From: Chryseobacterium sp. VAUSW3
Lineage (GTDB): Bacteria > Bacteroidota > Bacteroidia > Flavobacteriales > Weeksellaceae
DNA length: 64,000 bases
Reading direction: 5' to 3'
Assembly: GCF_002205795.1 (NCBI RefSeq)
Contig: NZ_NIUY01000002.1
Location: 496,001 to 560,000 of the forward strand
The notes beneath the pieces are model-generated. The model was not told the DNA's origin, made no database searches, and saw only the letters and a list, made by a program, of their open reading frames with translations. This document shows positions 22,004 through 57,724 of the stretch, one piece after another; the first letter of the stretch is position 1, and each line of letters starts with the position of its first letter. The position numbers and the translations under genes were made by a program.

Positions 22004-22031
22004 GAGGTTTTTTGCATAATCAGTAAAAAAG

Positions 22032-22050
22032 GGTGTTTTTACTGTATTTC
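22032..22050 (+). promoter_or_regulatory. Direct-repeat element, copy 1 (sensory operon)
   Basis: GGTGTTTT (22032-22039), 3-bp spacer TAC, then TGTATTTC (22043-22050): two half-sites 11 bp apart. From its second G to the -7 box is 34 bp. It also overlaps the expected start of the divergent yggS transcript. Confidence 0.7.
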
Positions 22051-22055
22051 GTAAT

Positions 22056-22063
22056 CAAATATA
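22056..22063 (-). promoter_or_regulatory. -7 box (TATATTTG) of yggS
   Basis: Minus-strand exact TAnnTTTG match, 52 bp before the yggS ATG. Confidence 0.55.
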
Positions 22064-22066
22064 AAG

Positions 22067-22074
22067 TATTTTTG
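22067..22074 (+). promoter_or_regulatory. -7 box (TATTTTTG) of the sensory operon
   Basis: Exact TAnnTTTG match 15 bp before the ATG at 22090; it rules out the in-frame ATG at 22033. Confidence 0.75.
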
Positions 22075-22089
22075 GTTAAAATAAAAATT

Positions 22090-22644
22090 ATGAAAAAAAA
22101 AATCTATACTTTCGGTGGGTTGCTGTGTGTGCTGTCAACGGTTGTTTTAGCAGGTTGTAATCAGGCAAATAAGCAGGAAAATTCCGGCGAAGGTAAGCTA
22201 GAAGTGACCCAGACAGAAGTTACCAGCAGTTACCAGAAAAAAATGATTGATAAAGATCTCATGTTGAAACTGGATTCGACTTACTCCGCAAACAACTACA
22301 GGTATATCAACGAAAAACGTAGTAAGAACAACCCAGATTCCCGTGAATTTTGGTATACTTTAGAAGATCTGGAAGGCTATATCGCTTTTGCAAAAAAAGA
22401 AGCCGAAAGCAAAAATCAGAAGGTAACAGGAATAAAAATAAAAATGGGACAATATCCTGAAAAAGGTGATTTTGATTCCCGGTTAGACTCCAAACTCTAT
22501 GGATATCAGACTGTTTATTTAATTCCGACGGTAATTTCTGCTGATAAGGAAGAATCTTCTACAAAACAAAGTTCATCAATGAAAGGTGAAGAAATCGAAG
22601 GCGTTCCAGGTATGGACTTTTCTTCGGCAAACCCTCCTTACTAG
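22090..22644 (+). CDS. Lipoprotein, first gene of a sensory operon
   Basis: 184 residues with a lipoprotein signal ending VVLAGC. I do not recognise the family. The mature part is polar and mixed, with 'SREFWYTLEDLEGYIAFAKKEAE' and 'ITGIKIKMGQYPEKG'-like segments and a low-complexity Ser/Lys stretch near the end. The start is chosen at 22090 because the -7 box lies at 22067-22074. It lies 9 bp ahead of a polytopic membrane protein, then kinase and regulator, so it may be an external sensor or ligand-binding partner of the kinase; that is inference. Confidence 0.8.
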   Translation: MKKKIYTFGGLLCVLSTVVLAGCNQANKQENSGEGKLEVTQTEVTSSYQKKMIDKDLMLKLDSTYSANNYRYINEKRSKNNPDSREFWYTLEDLEGYIAFAKKEAESKNQKVTGIKIKMGQYPEKGDFDSRLDSKLYGYQTVYLIPTVISADKEESSTKQSSSMKGEEIEGVPGMDFSSANPPY

Positions 22645-22653
22645 ACCAATGCT

Positions 22654-23331
22654 ATGGAAATTAACAGGTTGTATTTAACCGGTGCTTTACTGGTTATTTA
22701 TTTTATTATTATTATTTTATTAATCATTAGAAGAAAACATTTGGGGCCGCACATCTGGTATTTTATTATATCCATGATTTTTGTATTCCTATCAGAATTA
22801 TTCGCGACCATCGGTAAAATAATGTATGGAGAACAATATAATTCCACACCATTTATGTCCGGAGGAGTAATTATTTGTTCTTTAAGTACGGTTCTCATCT
22901 ATTACTATAAAATTCTCGAAAAGCGGCGTTCGAAGAACATACAGTTAGGAATTGTCTGTTTAAATTTTCTGAATATTATATTGTCAGTAATATTTATAGA
23001 TGATTTCTTTTTATTTCTTCCTTATATAACATACTTTATCACAATATTTCTGCTTTTGCTTTCCATTACGCTTTTTTTCTTTGAAACATTTAATTCCGAG
23101 AAAATATTTAACATTATAACCTATTATCCTTTCTGGATTTCCATAAGCCTTATTGTAATTTATTTGGGCGTTTTACCACTGATTATTATGAGTAAAAATG
23201 CAATTCAGTTATCAATTTCTAAAAATATTTTTCTCATATTACTTTATTCTGTTAACTTTACGGGATATACCATTATGCTGGCAGGTATTTTTTTTAGTAG
23301 AAAAGAAATATTAATTATGGATAATCATTGA
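22654..23331 (+). CDS. Polytopic membrane protein, probable sensor partner
   Basis: 225 residues with about six to seven hydrophobic helices over nearly the whole length, short loops and a basic 'RRKH' after the first helix. No named domain is recognised. Its stop codon overlaps the start of the histidine kinase gene (TTGA), so the two proteins are translationally coupled. The kinase itself has only one membrane helix and no input domain, so this protein is a likely signal-receiving subunit, comparable in layout to 7TM-type sensors. The signal is unknown. Confidence 0.75.
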   Translation: MEINRLYLTGALLVIYFIIIILLIIRRKHLGPHIWYFIISMIFVFLSELFATIGKIMYGEQYNSTPFMSGGVIICSLSTVLIYYYKILEKRRSKNIQLGIVCLNFLNIILSVIFIDDFFLFLPYITYFITIFLLLLSITLFFFETFNSEKIFNIITYYPFWISISLIVIYLGVLPLIIMSKNAIQLSISKNIFLILLYSVNFTGYTIMLAGIFFSRKEILIMDNH

Positions 23332-24098
23332 AAGCCAATGAAGTTGACATATTGATTATAATTTCAACCATCATGATACTGTCCGTAGTATTAATGATGG
23401 TTTTGATCTATGTATTCTACGTAAGAAAAAAAGGCGAGTTGTTGCTTTCCCAAAAAGAGAATGACATGAAATTTCAGCAGGAACTTACCCTTGCACAGAT
23501 TGAGATGCGCGAAGTTACTTTAAACTATATAGGTCAGGAACTGCACGACGATATTGGGCAGAAGCTTTCTGTAGCCAAACTTATGATTAATCAATTGATT
23601 TCACAGTGTGATGAAATGGCTAAAGTAAGTTTATCGGAGATTAACGAATTGCTGGGGGAAACCATTCAGGACATTAGGAATATGTCAAAAACTTTTATAA
23701 CGGATCAAGTAGAGCATTTCGGACTTATTGATACCCTGGAAATCGAAATGAACAGAATTGCCAGACTGAAATTAATTGACATTGAACTCCGTAGCAATAA
23801 ACATGATATTGAAATTAACCCGAAAGATGGGGTTATCATCTTTAGAATCATTCAGGAAAGTGTGAATAATACACTTAAACATTCAAAAGCGAAAAACCTA
23901 AATATAGAAGTTAAAGACAGTCCCAAAACATTGAAAATAATCATTCAGGATAATGGGGTAGGAATTAAAGGAGGGAAGACAGACGGTTCCGGACTCAACA
24001 ATATGAAGAAAAGAGCTTTGATGATGAATGCAGATTTGCAGATTACAAGTAAAGCAAATGTGGGTACAGTTCTAAAACTTATATATCCCAAAAAATAA
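23328..24098 (+). CDS. Histidine kinase (NarX/DesK-type, HisKA_3)
   Basis: 256 residues: one N-terminal membrane helix (about 8-28), a short coiled linker, then the HisKA_3 box 'GQELHDDIGQKLSVAKLMI' with the phospho-His in LHDD. The ATPase domain follows with N-box 'IIQESVNNTLKHSKA', G1 'QDNGVGI' and G2 'GSGLNNMKKRA'. There is no extracellular sensor domain. The start is the TTG at 23328, overlapping the preceding TGA; no in-frame ATG lies nearer than residue 16. The response regulator gene follows 5 bp downstream. Confidence 0.92.
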   Translation: MKANEVDILIIISTIMILSVVLMMVLIYVFYVRKKGELLLSQKENDMKFQQELTLAQIEMREVTLNYIGQELHDDIGQKLSVAKLMINQLISQCDEMAKVSLSEINELLGETIQDIRNMSKTFITDQVEHFGLIDTLEIEMNRIARLKLIDIELRSNKHDIEINPKDGVIIFRIIQESVNNTLKHSKAKNLNIEVKDSPKTLKIIIQDNGVGIKGGKTDGSGLNNMKKRALMMNADLQITSKANVGTVLKLIYPKK

Positions 24099-24103
24099 AA
24101 AAC

Positions 24104-24748
24104 ATGGAAGCTGTAAAAGTTGCAATTGTGGATGATCACAAGCTGGTTTCTAAAGCGCTTGAAAATATGATTTCACTGAATCCTAACTTTCAGGTTACGA
24201 TGAACTGTTTCAACGGACAGGATTTTATAGACGAGCTGGAGAAAGTAAAAACTTATCCCGATGTTGTTTTAATGGACATTAATATGCCGATTAAAAACGG
24301 TATTGAAACGACGGCGGAAATTTCACGTAAATTTCCTAATCTCAAAGTAATCGCTTTAACAATGGAGGATAATGAAGGAACAATTATTAAAATGATGAAA
24401 GCCGGCGCTAAAGGCTATCTGCTCAAAGATATGTCGCCCGATATTCTTTTTAATGCCATTAATATCGTGCATGAAAAAGGCATTTTTTATACCGATATGG
24501 TTACCCAGAGTCTTTTGAAAATTAAAACTGAAGAAAAATTCATGAAAAACCTGAATGAAACTTTAAAAGACCGTGAACTGGAATTTATTAAACTTGCCTG
24601 CTCCGAACTTACCTATAGGGAAATTGCAGATCAGATGTTCGTAAGTCCCCGTACCATAGATGGTTACAGAGATTCAATTTTTCTGAAACTTAATGTAAAA
24701 ACCCGCGTCGGTATTGTTCTGTTTGCAATAAAACACAACTTATGTTAA
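24104..24748 (+). CDS. LuxR/NarL-family response regulator
   Basis: 214 residues. The receiver has D10/D11, phosphoacceptor D58 (VVLMDINMP) and 'AKGYLLKD' with the conserved Lys. The C-terminal GerE-type helix-turn-helix is 'RELEFIKLACSELTYREIAD', then 'VSPRTIDGYRDSIFLKL'. It is the cognate partner of the kinase just upstream. The same direct-repeat element stands before its operon and again starts 5 bp after its stop codon, so it is the best candidate to bind that element. This is inference. Confidence 0.94.
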   Translation: MEAVKVAIVDDHKLVSKALENMISLNPNFQVTMNCFNGQDFIDELEKVKTYPDVVLMDINMPIKNGIETTAEISRKFPNLKVIALTMEDNEGTIIKMMKAGAKGYLLKDMSPDILFNAINIVHEKGIFYTDMVTQSLLKIKTEEKFMKNLNETLKDRELEFIKLACSELTYREIADQMFVSPRTIDGYRDSIFLKLNVKTRVGIVLFAIKHNLC

Positions 24749-24753
24749 AAAAG

Positions 24754-24772
24754 GGTGTTTTCACGGTATTTT
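24754..24772 (+). promoter_or_regulatory. Direct-repeat element, copy 2
   Basis: GGTGTTTT (24754-24761), CAC, GGTATTTT (24765-24772). Its second G lies 34 bp from a -7 box, the same distance as in copy 1. Confidence 0.75.
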
Positions 24773-24788
24773 TAAGATAATTATTAAT

Positions 24789-24796
24789 TACTTTTG
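24789..24796 (+). promoter_or_regulatory. -7 box (TACTTTTG) behind the sensory operon
   Basis: Exact TAnnTTTG match 34 bp from copy 2 of the repeat element. No plus-strand gene of normal size follows. Confidence 0.65.
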
Positions 24797-24802
24797 TGGT
24801 AT

Positions 24803-24858
24803 CAAATATGACACAAATAATGAAAAAAAGAGAACCGGTTTTTGGCTGGTTCTTTTTT
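24803..24858 (+). ncRNA. Possible small RNA of about 55 nt
   Basis: From the expected start about 7 bases after the -7 box to the terminator T run. It has no ribosome-binding leader; the only ORF starts 5 bases in and runs through the terminator. The promoter has the same repeat element and spacing as the sensory operon. Existence as a transcript is inferred. Confidence 0.4.
24831..24858 (+). terminator. Intrinsic terminator behind the sensory operon
   Basis: AGAACC / GGTTCT stem with an 11-base loop, extended by A-T pairs and followed by a run of T. It ends the regulator transcript, the possible small RNA, or both. Confidence 0.8.
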
Positions 24859-24914
24859 ATTTTTAAATACCAAAAAAGTAAGTATTTAAATCGCTTAAAG
24901 CATGTTTACAATTT

Positions 24915-55570: not shown

Positions 55571-56398
55571 ATGGAAAAGGAACATAACTTTATATCCGAA
55601 CGCACGAAATGGAAACGTCAGGTTTACCGTATTATCTTTCTTTCAGACACTAAACTTGGTAAGCTCTTCGACCTTGTTCTTTTGGTTCTTATCTTATTAA
55701 GCACCTTCATCGTCATGATGGAAAGTGTAAAGATTTTCGATGCTAAGCTCCATCTTGTTTTTGTAATTCTTGAAATCATCATCACTGCATTTTTTACGGT
55801 TGAATATGTGTTACGAGTTCTTACCATTAAAAATAAGAAAGCATATATCTTCAGTTTTTTTGGAATCATCGATTTTCTGGCAATCCTTCCTTTTTACCTG
55901 AGTCTGTTTTTCCCCATTACAAAGTACTTTTTGATTTTAAGAATGCTCAGGATGCTGAGGGTTTTCAGGATTTTTAACCTTCTGGATTTTATGAATGATG
56001 GCTATTTCATCGTAAGAGCTCTGAAACACAGTTCCAGAAAGATATATATATTTCTCCTGTTTTTGGTAATATTCTGTGTAATCGTGGGTTCGCTGATGTT
56101 TATGGTGGAGGGTCACCGGGAAGGATTTGAAAGCATTCCACAGAGTATTTACTGGGCGGTAGTGACTGTAACAACAGTGGGTTATGGTGATGTTTCGCCG
56201 GGTACACCACTCGGTAAATTCCTTTCAGTTCTTCTAATGCTTGCCGGTTATTCTATCATTGCTGTGCCGACAGGAATTGTAACCGCAGAAATGCGCAACA
56301 AACGCCAAAATCTGGAGAAAGTTTGTGACCGGTGCGGGAATGAGGATATTGATGATGATTCGCGTTATTGCAAAATCTGCGGCGAAAAAGTGGTATAA
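55571..56398 (+). CDS. Voltage-gated potassium channel with C-terminal zinc ribbon
   Basis: 275 residues with six membrane helices. S4 carries arginines at every third place (R124, R127, R130, R133 in RMLRMLRVFRIF). The pore filter is TTVGYGD (201-207), selective for potassium. After S6 ('GYSIIAVPTGIVTAEM') the chain ends in a small ribbon with C252-x2-C255 and C267-x2-C270. The channel family is clear; the zinc ribbon in place of a longer cytoplasmic domain is notable and may gate or anchor the tetramer. Confidence 0.93.
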   Translation: MEKEHNFISERTKWKRQVYRIIFLSDTKLGKLFDLVLLVLILLSTFIVMMESVKIFDAKLHLVFVILEIIITAFFTVEYVLRVLTIKNKKAYIFSFFGIIDFLAILPFYLSLFFPITKYFLILRMLRMLRVFRIFNLLDFMNDGYFIVRALKHSSRKIYIFLLFLVIFCVIVGSLMFMVEGHREGFESIPQSIYWAVVTVTTVGYGDVSPGTPLGKFLSVLLMLAGYSIIAVPTGIVTAEMRNKRQNLEKVCDRCGNEDIDDDSRYCKICGEKVV

Positions 56399-56405
56399 AA
56401 AAAGA

Positions 56406-56430
56406 AGATGCATTTTAGCGCATCTCCTTT
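56406..56430 (+). terminator. Terminator of the channel gene
   Basis: AGATGC / GCATCT stem with 8-base loop, followed by CCTTTTCTT. Confidence 0.65.
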
Positions 56431-56511
56431 TCTTCTCAAAATTTGTGTTTTAGGTCTCAGGTTTTTACCTTTTGTTACAAATCATCATTTGTGATTATAT
56501 GAAACGGTGTT

Positions 56512-57447
56512 TTAATCTTTAAACAGTGAAACACGGGTTAATGATTGAAATTCCACGGTTGCAGCCGCATCTGCTTTCAAGAAAAAATTATAACCTTTAG
56601 GAACCGTATTTGCTGGTGGTTCGTATCCAACACTAGCTTCATCCGCTATAGTTACAAATAAGAACGTTAAGATGTTACCCGCTGGAGAATTTGAACCACT
56701 AGGAAGCGATTGAATAGAATTAATCTCGAACAAACTAACGGGATTTCTCATAATTGCCATCACGGATCCCGCGGAACCTGCACCAGCAACAACCCTTACA
56801 ACTAAACGCCACATGTGAACCTGTCCTAAAATTTGATTTTCGCGAAATTTTCCTGTTGCATCATCATAAATAAGTGGGGTCATCACCGCTGCAGATCCAA
56901 CCGTGCCGACCATCTCAGGCCAACTGGTTGTGCTTGGAGGTGCAAATGTTAACGGTGTACTTAGTATTAATGGTTGCTCAGCACCATACCCGTTACCTCC
57001 TTTCGGTAAAACAAATGATGGTAAACTCCCGCCTGAACCTCCTATAATTTTTACTACCCCATCATTACCGGCAGCTGACGAGGAGGCAACAAATAACCTT
57101 CTCCATTTCTGTCCGGGATCATCCCAATAAAAGAAACCTGAGGTTGTTAAGAATTCGCCTCTTCCGGTGCTTTCTTGGTTAGGAACCGATGCGGCAGAAG
57201 TGGCATAAACCAAGTTGGAATAATTCGAGGTTGATGCCGCTGCATAACCTTGAGCTACAGATATCGGCATATTAAATATTTCATCTCCTGTAAACCTGGG
57301 GACAAGCAAACCTGCAACTTTAGTTGCAACATCTTTACCATCAATCTGTAAAGTCGTAGTTGGCGCAGTGGTATTAATTCCCACCTGCGCGTGTGAAATC
57401 GTAAATAGGATTAACGACATTCCTAAAATAAATTTTTTTCTCATCAT
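56512..57447 (-). CDS. Secreted protein of unknown function
   Basis: 311 residues with a signal peptide (cleavage near ISHAQ). The mature start 'VGINTTAPTTTLQIDGKD' is a sequence type seen at the head of many flavobacterial cell-surface proteins. The rest is rich in Gly, Ser, Ala and Thr with beta-like stretches and no enzyme motif: 'LVPRFTGDEI', 'GFFYWDDPGQKWRRLFV', 'VEFQSLTRVSLFKD'. Its promoter region carries the third copy of the direct-repeat element of the sensory operon, so it may be a target of that regulator. Function unknown. Confidence 0.8.
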   Translation of the reverse strand: MMRKKFILGMSLILFTISHAQVGINTTAPTTTLQIDGKDVATKVAGLLVPRFTGDEIFNMPISVAQGYAAASTSNYSNLVYATSAASVPNQESTGRGEFLTTSGFFYWDDPGQKWRRLFVASSSAAGNDGVVKIIGGSGGSLPSFVLPKGGNGYGAEQPLILSTPLTFAPPSTTSWPEMVGTVGSAAVMTPLIYDDATGKFRENQILGQVHMWRLVVRVVAGAGSAGSVMAIMRNPVSLFEINSIQSLPSGSNSPAGNILTFLFVTIADEASVGYEPPANTVPKGYNFFLKADAAATVEFQSLTRVSLFKD

Positions 57448-57464
57448 GTGTGTTTTTTACGATT

Positions 57465-57472
57465 TAAAATTA
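57465..57472 (-). promoter_or_regulatory. Possible -7 box (TAATTTTA) of the secreted-protein gene
   Basis: One mismatch to TAnnTTTG; 35 bp from the second G of copy 3 of the repeat element and 17 bp before the ATG. Confidence 0.45.
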
Positions 57473-57489
57473 CTACTAATGAATAGAAT

Positions 57490-57508
57490 AAAATACCGTT
57501 AAAACACC
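57490..57508 (-). promoter_or_regulatory. Direct-repeat element, copy 3
   Basis: On the minus strand GGTGTTTT (57508-57501), AAC, GGTATTTT (57497-57490). Both half-sites are perfect relative to copy 2. Confidence 0.75.
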
Positions 57509-57724
57509 TTTTTTTAATAAATTATTTTATTGTATATTACAAAGTGTGAAAAATATACTAATCGATTCCGTCTATTAAATATTCCTTTTCCAAACAAAGA
57601 CTGTGTGTAGGCATCCTTGGAATAGTGCTAAATCTCAGCTTTTTTTGTGTATTAAAAGGGTAAATAAAAGAGTTGAATTTATCAACAAAAGAATTTATAA
57701 AAACTATTGTACGCATAAAATAAA
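57509..57724. other. Rest of a 327-bp gene-free stretch
   Basis: Between the repeat element and the isomerase terminator I see AT-rich DNA and a minus-strand ORF of 60 codons (57558-57740). Its last 28 residues look protein-like, but it has no promoter or leader that I can see. It may be a decayed gene. Confidence 0.35.

Follow-up and report, generated by a model that had tools for sequence, protein, structure and literature searches.

An element recurring in front of three transcription units of the window (the whole stretch of 64,000 nucleotides of Chryseobacterium sp. VAUSW3) raised the question of which protein binds it and what is controlled through it. The initial annotation had taken it for a direct repeat that marks three promoters and points to an autoregulated two-component system. 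The 19-bp pattern was found where it had been placed, at nt 22032-22050 (+, 2 mismatches), 24754-24772 (+, exact), and 57490-57508 (-, exact); with up to 3 mismatches, its chance expectation was 0.20, and three sites were reached in 0/100 shuffles. The operators, designated copies 1 to 3, were GGGTG-TTTT-TACTGT with a degenerate right arm at nt 22031-22045 (+) in front of the two-component operon, AGGGTG-TTTT-CACGGT at nt 24752-24767 (+) at the stop codon of the regulator gene, and AAGGTG-TTTT-AACGGTA at nt 57494-57510 (-), syntenic with the operator of an RNA locus, sRNA3, in other species. The corresponding -7 boxes were TATTTTTG at nt 22067-22074 (+, operon promoter, offset 35 bp), TACTTTTG at nt 24789-24796 (+, promoter of the predicted RNA sRNA1), and TAATTTTA at nt 57465-57472 (-), and the distance from the first G of GGTG to TAnn was 35, 35, and 36 bp in copies 1, 2, and 3, in agreement with the constant spacing noted before. 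In the genome scan that had been proposed, the 19-mer alone was barely enriched (16 matches versus 12 in the reversed control, at most 3 mismatches), but the site combined with the -7 box (GGTGNTTTNAC-N23..26-TANNTTTG) was strongly enriched, with 4 matches versus 0 in the reversed control of the source genome and, summed over the tabulated genomes, 123 versus 2 in 36 Kaistella genomes.

The architecture of the element was compared over 60 orthologous sites, 33 behind the regulator gene and 27 upstream. Copies 2 and 3 read exactly GGTGTTTT-NAC-GGTATTTT, as a direct-repeat activator element would require, yet the second half GGTATTTT, with at most 1 mismatch, was kept in just 2/60 sites, and conserved instead was a right side, CAC(G/C/T)CT, that is the mirror image of AGGGTG. 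The direct repeat with an 11-bp period was thus rejected, and a direct-repeat element marking three gene promoters is considered extremely improbable. The consensus was an inverted repeat, AGGGTG-wTTT-CAC(G/C/T)CT (also written AGGGTG-wTTT-CACsCT), whose right arm was less strict in the 27 upstream sites. Conservation of GGTG, TTT, and AC was imposed by the search pattern and is not independent; among the positions left free, the leading G was found in 57/60 sites; of the 33 sites that follow the regulator gene, 31 had the first C of CAC, 26 the trailing C, and 32 the trailing T. The offset between operator and -7 box (TAnnTTTG) was 36 bp in 33, 35 bp in 24, and 37 bp in 2 of the 59 sites with a -7 match. 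With the transcript start presumably about 5 nt past TTTG, the dyad would be centred near -41, so that the activator-type placement proposed earlier was supported. No description of such an operator was met among the papers listed in literature searches by text, in which the motif itself could not be queried.

Copy 1 precedes four genes on the + strand, encoding a lipoprotein-like protein (nt 22090-22644) and a hydrophobic, membrane-type protein (nt 22654-23331), both judged by eye and with no Pfam/NCBIfam match, followed by a histidine kinase (nt 23328-24098; HisKA_3 PF07730 and HATPase_c PF02518) and a response regulator, the predicted activator of the sites (nt 24104-24748). NarL/FixJ-type response regulators combine a receiver with a GerE domain, recognize an inverted-repeat operator, and act from an activator position. 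The same features were observed or predicted here, namely an N-terminal receiver domain (PF00072, E 4.9e-25), a C-terminal GerE domain (PF00196, E 3.5e-10) typical of the LuxR type, a predicted inverted-repeat operator, and its position. Orthologues with at least 71% identity were present in 33/36 Kaistella genomes, including the source genome. In all 33, an operator was located at or directly past the stop codon of the regulator gene, and in 31/33 another lay 5' of the operon or its detected remnant, 27 with the strict pattern and 4 (L096, L097, L102, and L111) with a relaxed one; no upstream operator was found in L099, and the contig of L108 begins within the operon. An orphan regulator, with a site 79 bp upstream and the first three operon genes not detected, was found in G020 and G034. 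The three Kaistella genomes lacking a regulator orthologue were G026 and G028, in which no operator was found, and G012, in which a 23-aa regulator-like fragment was located behind a relic operator. Since G026 is the sister of G028 (86% DNA identity; the two flanking genes lie next to each other in both), their joint loss counts as one event. The operators are placed around the regulator gene and, save for one relic, are gone with it, which indicates autoregulation as claimed by the initial annotation; on these sequence data, autoregulation by this response regulator is well supported.

The recognition helix pointed in the same direction. An R occupied one place in 33/33 Kaistella orthologues, which were set against six diverged homologues of 62-66% identity, namely five from other genera and one from Kaistella G035, where it is a second copy. 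K was found at this place in 5/6, four of these five having operator-like dyads that end in CCT, while none was seen at the fifth, L126; the R-type homologue L127 has GGGTGATTTTCAC. An R accompanied a CAC right arm, and a K, in the diverged homologues, a CCT right arm. This comparison is of a small sample read by eye. Dyad, synteny, co-loss, and covariation of helix and operator fit the LuxR-type regulator as the predicted binder of the inverted repeat, and the candidate named at the outset was thereby retained. The Riemerella two-component system in the accessible part of one report (PMC5399024) has an OmpR-type regulator, which is different from the LuxR-type regulator here.

Copy 2 is predicted to drive not a protein gene but a transcript of about 60 nt, sRNA1 (nt 24800-24859, +), with an unstructured 5' part and an intrinsic terminator (fold z -4.06). 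The terminator showed compensatory changes at 9/13 pairs in an alignment of 29/33 sequences, from which L100, L101, L115, and L120 were omitted as their 3' parts differ. The 5' part bears CACAAATrATGAAAA or a variant, and promoter, this start-site mimic, and terminator were jointly kept in 29/33 genomes; an sRNA1-like RNA was also observed behind the regulator in two other genera (G039 and G047; 2/6 diverged loci examined) despite a diverged operator. A promoter for sir2, the next gene in the source genome, was rejected as a general reading of copy 2 because the site and the sRNA1 region persist in four genomes in which no sir2 was detected (G009, G032, G017, and G024). It is also highly improbable that sRNA1 and sRNA3 encode short leader or toxin-like peptides starting at the ATG of the motif: several sRNA1 sequences could code for 8-aa peptides such as MKKKRTGF, but the predicted peptides were 3 to 52 aa long and differed in frame, with no conserved peptide among them, 10/33 gave none by the search rule (some of these do have an ATG elsewhere), and the motif of L114 lacks an ATG. 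Thus, as predicted from sequence, sRNA1 has its own promoter and terminator and no conserved ORF, as a sponge RNA would.

Copy 3 is, by synteny, the predicted promoter of another conserved RNA locus, sRNA3, which in this clade has a secreted-type ORF set into it. The operator faces a channel-like gene in 17 genomes, where it is predicted to drive a terminated RNA containing ACAAATGA once or twice; in four others, namely the source genome, G005, G023, and G027, the promoter at the syntenic position precedes an ORF for a secreted-type protein, and the channel gene was present at all 21 of these loci. The gene behind copy 3 (nt 56512-57447, -) encodes a 311-aa secreted-type protein (QVGINTTAP...) with no Pfam/NCBIfam match and has AACACACATGATGAGAAA around its start codon (nt 57437-57454, -). 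Its 3' UTR (nt 56396-56511, -) corresponds to the remaining part of sRNA3 and, in the source genome, contains two sites complementary to the core of an RNA family, sRNA-F, described below (nt 56481-56495 and 56426-56450) as well as a terminator-like hairpin; since these are retained, the 311-aa ORF sits inside the sRNA3 unit. This arrangement suggests that mRNA and sponge may be interconvertible at this locus via gain or loss of an ORF.

Both sRNA1 and sRNA3 bear start mimics resembling ACACAAATrATGAAAA, and three of the four exact matches to ACACAAATGATG in the source genome were genes of another family read on the opposite strand; this family, here called sRNA-F, has its genes outside the window. 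These genes consist of a variable 5' part (often a hairpin), a core around AATAAATTTTTTTTCATCATTTGTGTTTTT, a terminator hairpin, and a T-run. By covariance model, sRNA-F was detected in 34/36 Kaistella genomes with 2-7 copies each, being absent exactly in G026 and G028, and in 18/25 other genera of the bacterial family, while strict filters left it in 0/39 genomes of other families of the order. The 21-nt core TTTTTTTCATCATTTGTGTTT was unchanged in 30/30 best-per-genome model matches and 47/49 distinct copies, a constancy that is inflated and partly built in because the copies were picked by the core or a core-derived model and that refers to the copies examined, weaker model matches being outside the sample; a 30-nt version was exact in 18/49 distinct copies. 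No operator core was found within 250 nt upstream of any of these 49 copies. Searches of Rfam with sRNA1, sRNA3, and sRNA-F gave nothing above the gathering score except a tRNA beside one sRNA-F copy, matches below that score being regarded as chance, and one sRNA-F copy of the source genome had no match in phages or plasmids. In G006, G007, G008, G010, G017, and G035, sRNA-F genes were found in tandem, about 170-178 bp apart, and G041, of another genus, had eleven model matches with lower scores, some clustered about 105 bp apart.

Complementarity was scored against the 30-nt core with dinucleotide shuffles. At a level of at most 1% of shuffles, extended complementarity as expected of a sponge was found for sRNA1 in 29/33 genomes (at most 3/300 shuffles) and for sRNA3 in 15/17 (60 shuffles each, best window). 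Exceptions among sRNA1 were that of G033, which was not complementary (190/300), and the weak cases L098, L100, and L101, with 6, 7, and 17/300 among the three. The mimic of the source-genome sRNA1, GACACAAATAATGAAAAA (nt 24810-24827, +), is complementary to the core bar one A.C mismatch in mid-duplex that is common to 13/29 aligned sequences and counts against a sponge. The start of the copy-3 gene formed a predicted duplex of -25.6 kcal/mol with the core (0/300 shuffles), and its 3' UTR reached 1/300. Leaders of regulated genes, with only full -7 match sites included and the operon, sRNA1, and sRNA2 (see below) sites left out, were complementary at this level in 16/41 cases (short mRNA leaders 11/31, long leaders 5/10), several of the 16 being orthologues of one 269-276-aa gene; the remaining 25/41 had no complementarity at p<=0.01, as did the other regulated sites (0/2), and the operon's own leader was weakly complementary (9/300). 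These leaders and the four sRNA1 exceptions likewise count against the sponge reading.

These values bear on another alternative, an ordinary autoregulated two-component system in which copy 2 is a mere promoter before a terminator, and the motif no more than the A-rich sequence usual at starts in these bacteria. Starts in this phylum are normally A-rich, the motif often includes ATG, and at up to 3 mismatches the mimic occurred 37 times in the source genome versus 20 in the reversed control, an enrichment of about twofold only. However, control start regions of the window were complementary to the core in 1/47 cases (p<=0.01, 100 shuffles each), and promoter, mimic, and terminator persist together in the genomes counted above, among them the four examined in which sir2 was not found. 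This alternative is regarded as quite improbable. With at most 2 mismatches, 11 sites resembling AACACAAATGATGAAAAA were located in the source genome: the three sRNA-F genes, sRNA1, the copy-3 start, one other terminated RNA, one site behind two operator-like repeats, three more starts of secreted-type genes, and one site within a CDS, the sole one with no evident role. Two further observations were made. An RNA-like unit of about 60 nt (L294, G000:C1:738444-738461) has a start mimic, ATCACAAATGATGAAAAA, and a terminator, with no operator seen in front, and is possibly a sponge under other control. A 503-aa secreted-type protein (L295, G000:C4:164682) has a start region one mismatch from the mimic, and its gene lies just 3' of that for another LuxR-type response regulator, a paralogue (C4:163954-164535).

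RsmY and RsmZ act as decoys of the protein RsmA, and GlmY as a decoy of RapZ. As with RsmY and RsmZ, ACACAAATGATG could be a protein-binding site and the regulator-driven RNAs decoys of an RNA-binding protein such as an RRM-1 protein, the match to sRNA-F reflecting shared binding or coincidence. The one or two motif copies of sRNA3, the mid-duplex mismatch tolerated by sRNA1, and an RRM protein that binds Bacteroides sRNAs according to the accessible text of PMC11697453 agree with such a decoy; however, sRNA-F carries the complement of the motif rather than the motif itself, and complementarity can extend past the motif, e.g., over about 30 nt at the copy-3 start. Taken jointly, the decoy and its account of the sRNA-F match appear unlikely.

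The best and simplest reading, which we hold to be moderately probable from the sequence comparisons, is that sponges made under the regulator titrate a family of sRNAs directed against start codons. The LuxR/NarL-type regulator (nt 24104-24748) would bind AGGGTG-wTTT-CACsCT centred near -41 and activate its own operon, sRNA1 encoded right past its stop codon, the sRNA3 unit about 30 kb away via copy 3, and a small number of genes for secreted or surface proteins and for DNA uptake. Mimicking the start region ACACAAATGATGAAAAA, sRNA1 and sRNA3 would serve as sponges for sRNA-F, whose core around TTTTTTTCATCATTTGTGTTT would pair with the start codons of mRNAs for secreted proteins; a signal would thus raise the sponges, titrate sRNA-F, and free the translation of surface proteins, some of whose genes may also be transcribed by the regulator. 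The computation shows that the operator is conserved, is placed around the regulator gene and is lost with it, that the terminator covaries, that the RNAs are complementary, and that the sRNA-F family exists; from this we infer transcription, binding of the regulator, RNA pairing in cells, titration, the direction of the effect, and the signal. Two findings on distribution count against sponges: sRNA-F occurs in 12 of 18 other genera without a regulator of at least 50% identity (own tally), and G012, with only a fragment of the regulator left, still has it. For the fuller claim, that a two-component system governs surface-protein translation by start-codon-mimic sponges, with sRNA3 partly the 3' UTR of a target mRNA, titrating multicopy sRNAs spread over the bacterial family, the balance tips only slightly in favour.

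Operators were linked to several further genes, including those for T9SS-sorted proteins (PF18962 in L062, L138, and L139), ComEA-like helix-hairpin-helix proteins (L177 in the source genome, with HHH_3 above and NCBIfam comEA below the cut-off, and L069, L085, and L173, assigned by similar sequence), ComEC (L160 by profile; L166 and L005 by sequence likeness judged by eye, L005 being in the source genome with an operator of 2 mismatches), a prolyl-oligopeptidase-type protein (L087), and a Pif1-like helicase (L148, with L167 similar). Since operators precede ComEA-like and ComEC genes in several genomes, these sequences suggest that the regulator controls DNA uptake genes. Another short RNA behind an operator, sRNA2, was predicted at L092, L098, L100, L101, L118 (3' of sRNA1), and L131; it has a conserved U-rich stretch near TTTCTTTATATTTATTTTTTTTAAAGC and its own terminator.

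The proposed circuit resembles known systems in its way of working. According to the accessible text of PMC9732341, QrrX of Vibrio cholerae is an RNA sponge that pairs with the multicopy Qrr1-4, is switched on by a dedicated LysR-type transcription factor, QrrT, and belongs to RNAs found with Hfq. A proposed sponge against a multicopy sRNA family and a dedicated transcription factor are shared with it, whereas here the factor is a two-component regulator, the sponge is coded directly behind it, several sponge loci are involved, and the phylum is different. FopS sRNAs of Bacteroides thetaiotaomicron, as described in the accessible text of PMC11697453, are multicopy, possess a conserved single-stranded seed and a terminator, and act at start regions to repress mRNAs of surface proteins; nowhere does that text use the word 'sponge'. 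Similarly, sRNA-F is multicopy, belongs to the same phylum, has a conserved core and a terminator, and matches starts of secreted-type genes, with no match to the Rfam sRNA families searched, a set that may not include FopS. QseE/QseF-GlmY of Escherichia coli, in the portion available of PMC6075780, is a two-component system transcribing a regulatory sRNA, as predicted here, but from sigma-54 promoters, unlike the present system. By analogy, the sponge would work like QrrX and the sRNA family like FopS, with membership in neither claimed. Among the open-licence papers listed in literature searches, none described a sponge or an sRNA family of this kind from the bacterial family.

Circuits of sRNAs in Bacteroidota are only starting to be known, and these bacteria initiate translation without the usual Shine-Dalgarno pairing. 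If true, an sRNA family with a core over the start codon, together with mimics made under a regulator, would be the start-codon counterpart of anti-Shine-Dalgarno sRNAs. The two-component system would give the circuit a clear input, and its few elements could be deleted individually in environmental strains. For the regulator, the predicted operator and regulon, with ComEA-like and ComEC proteins among the members of the latter, can also be put to the test.
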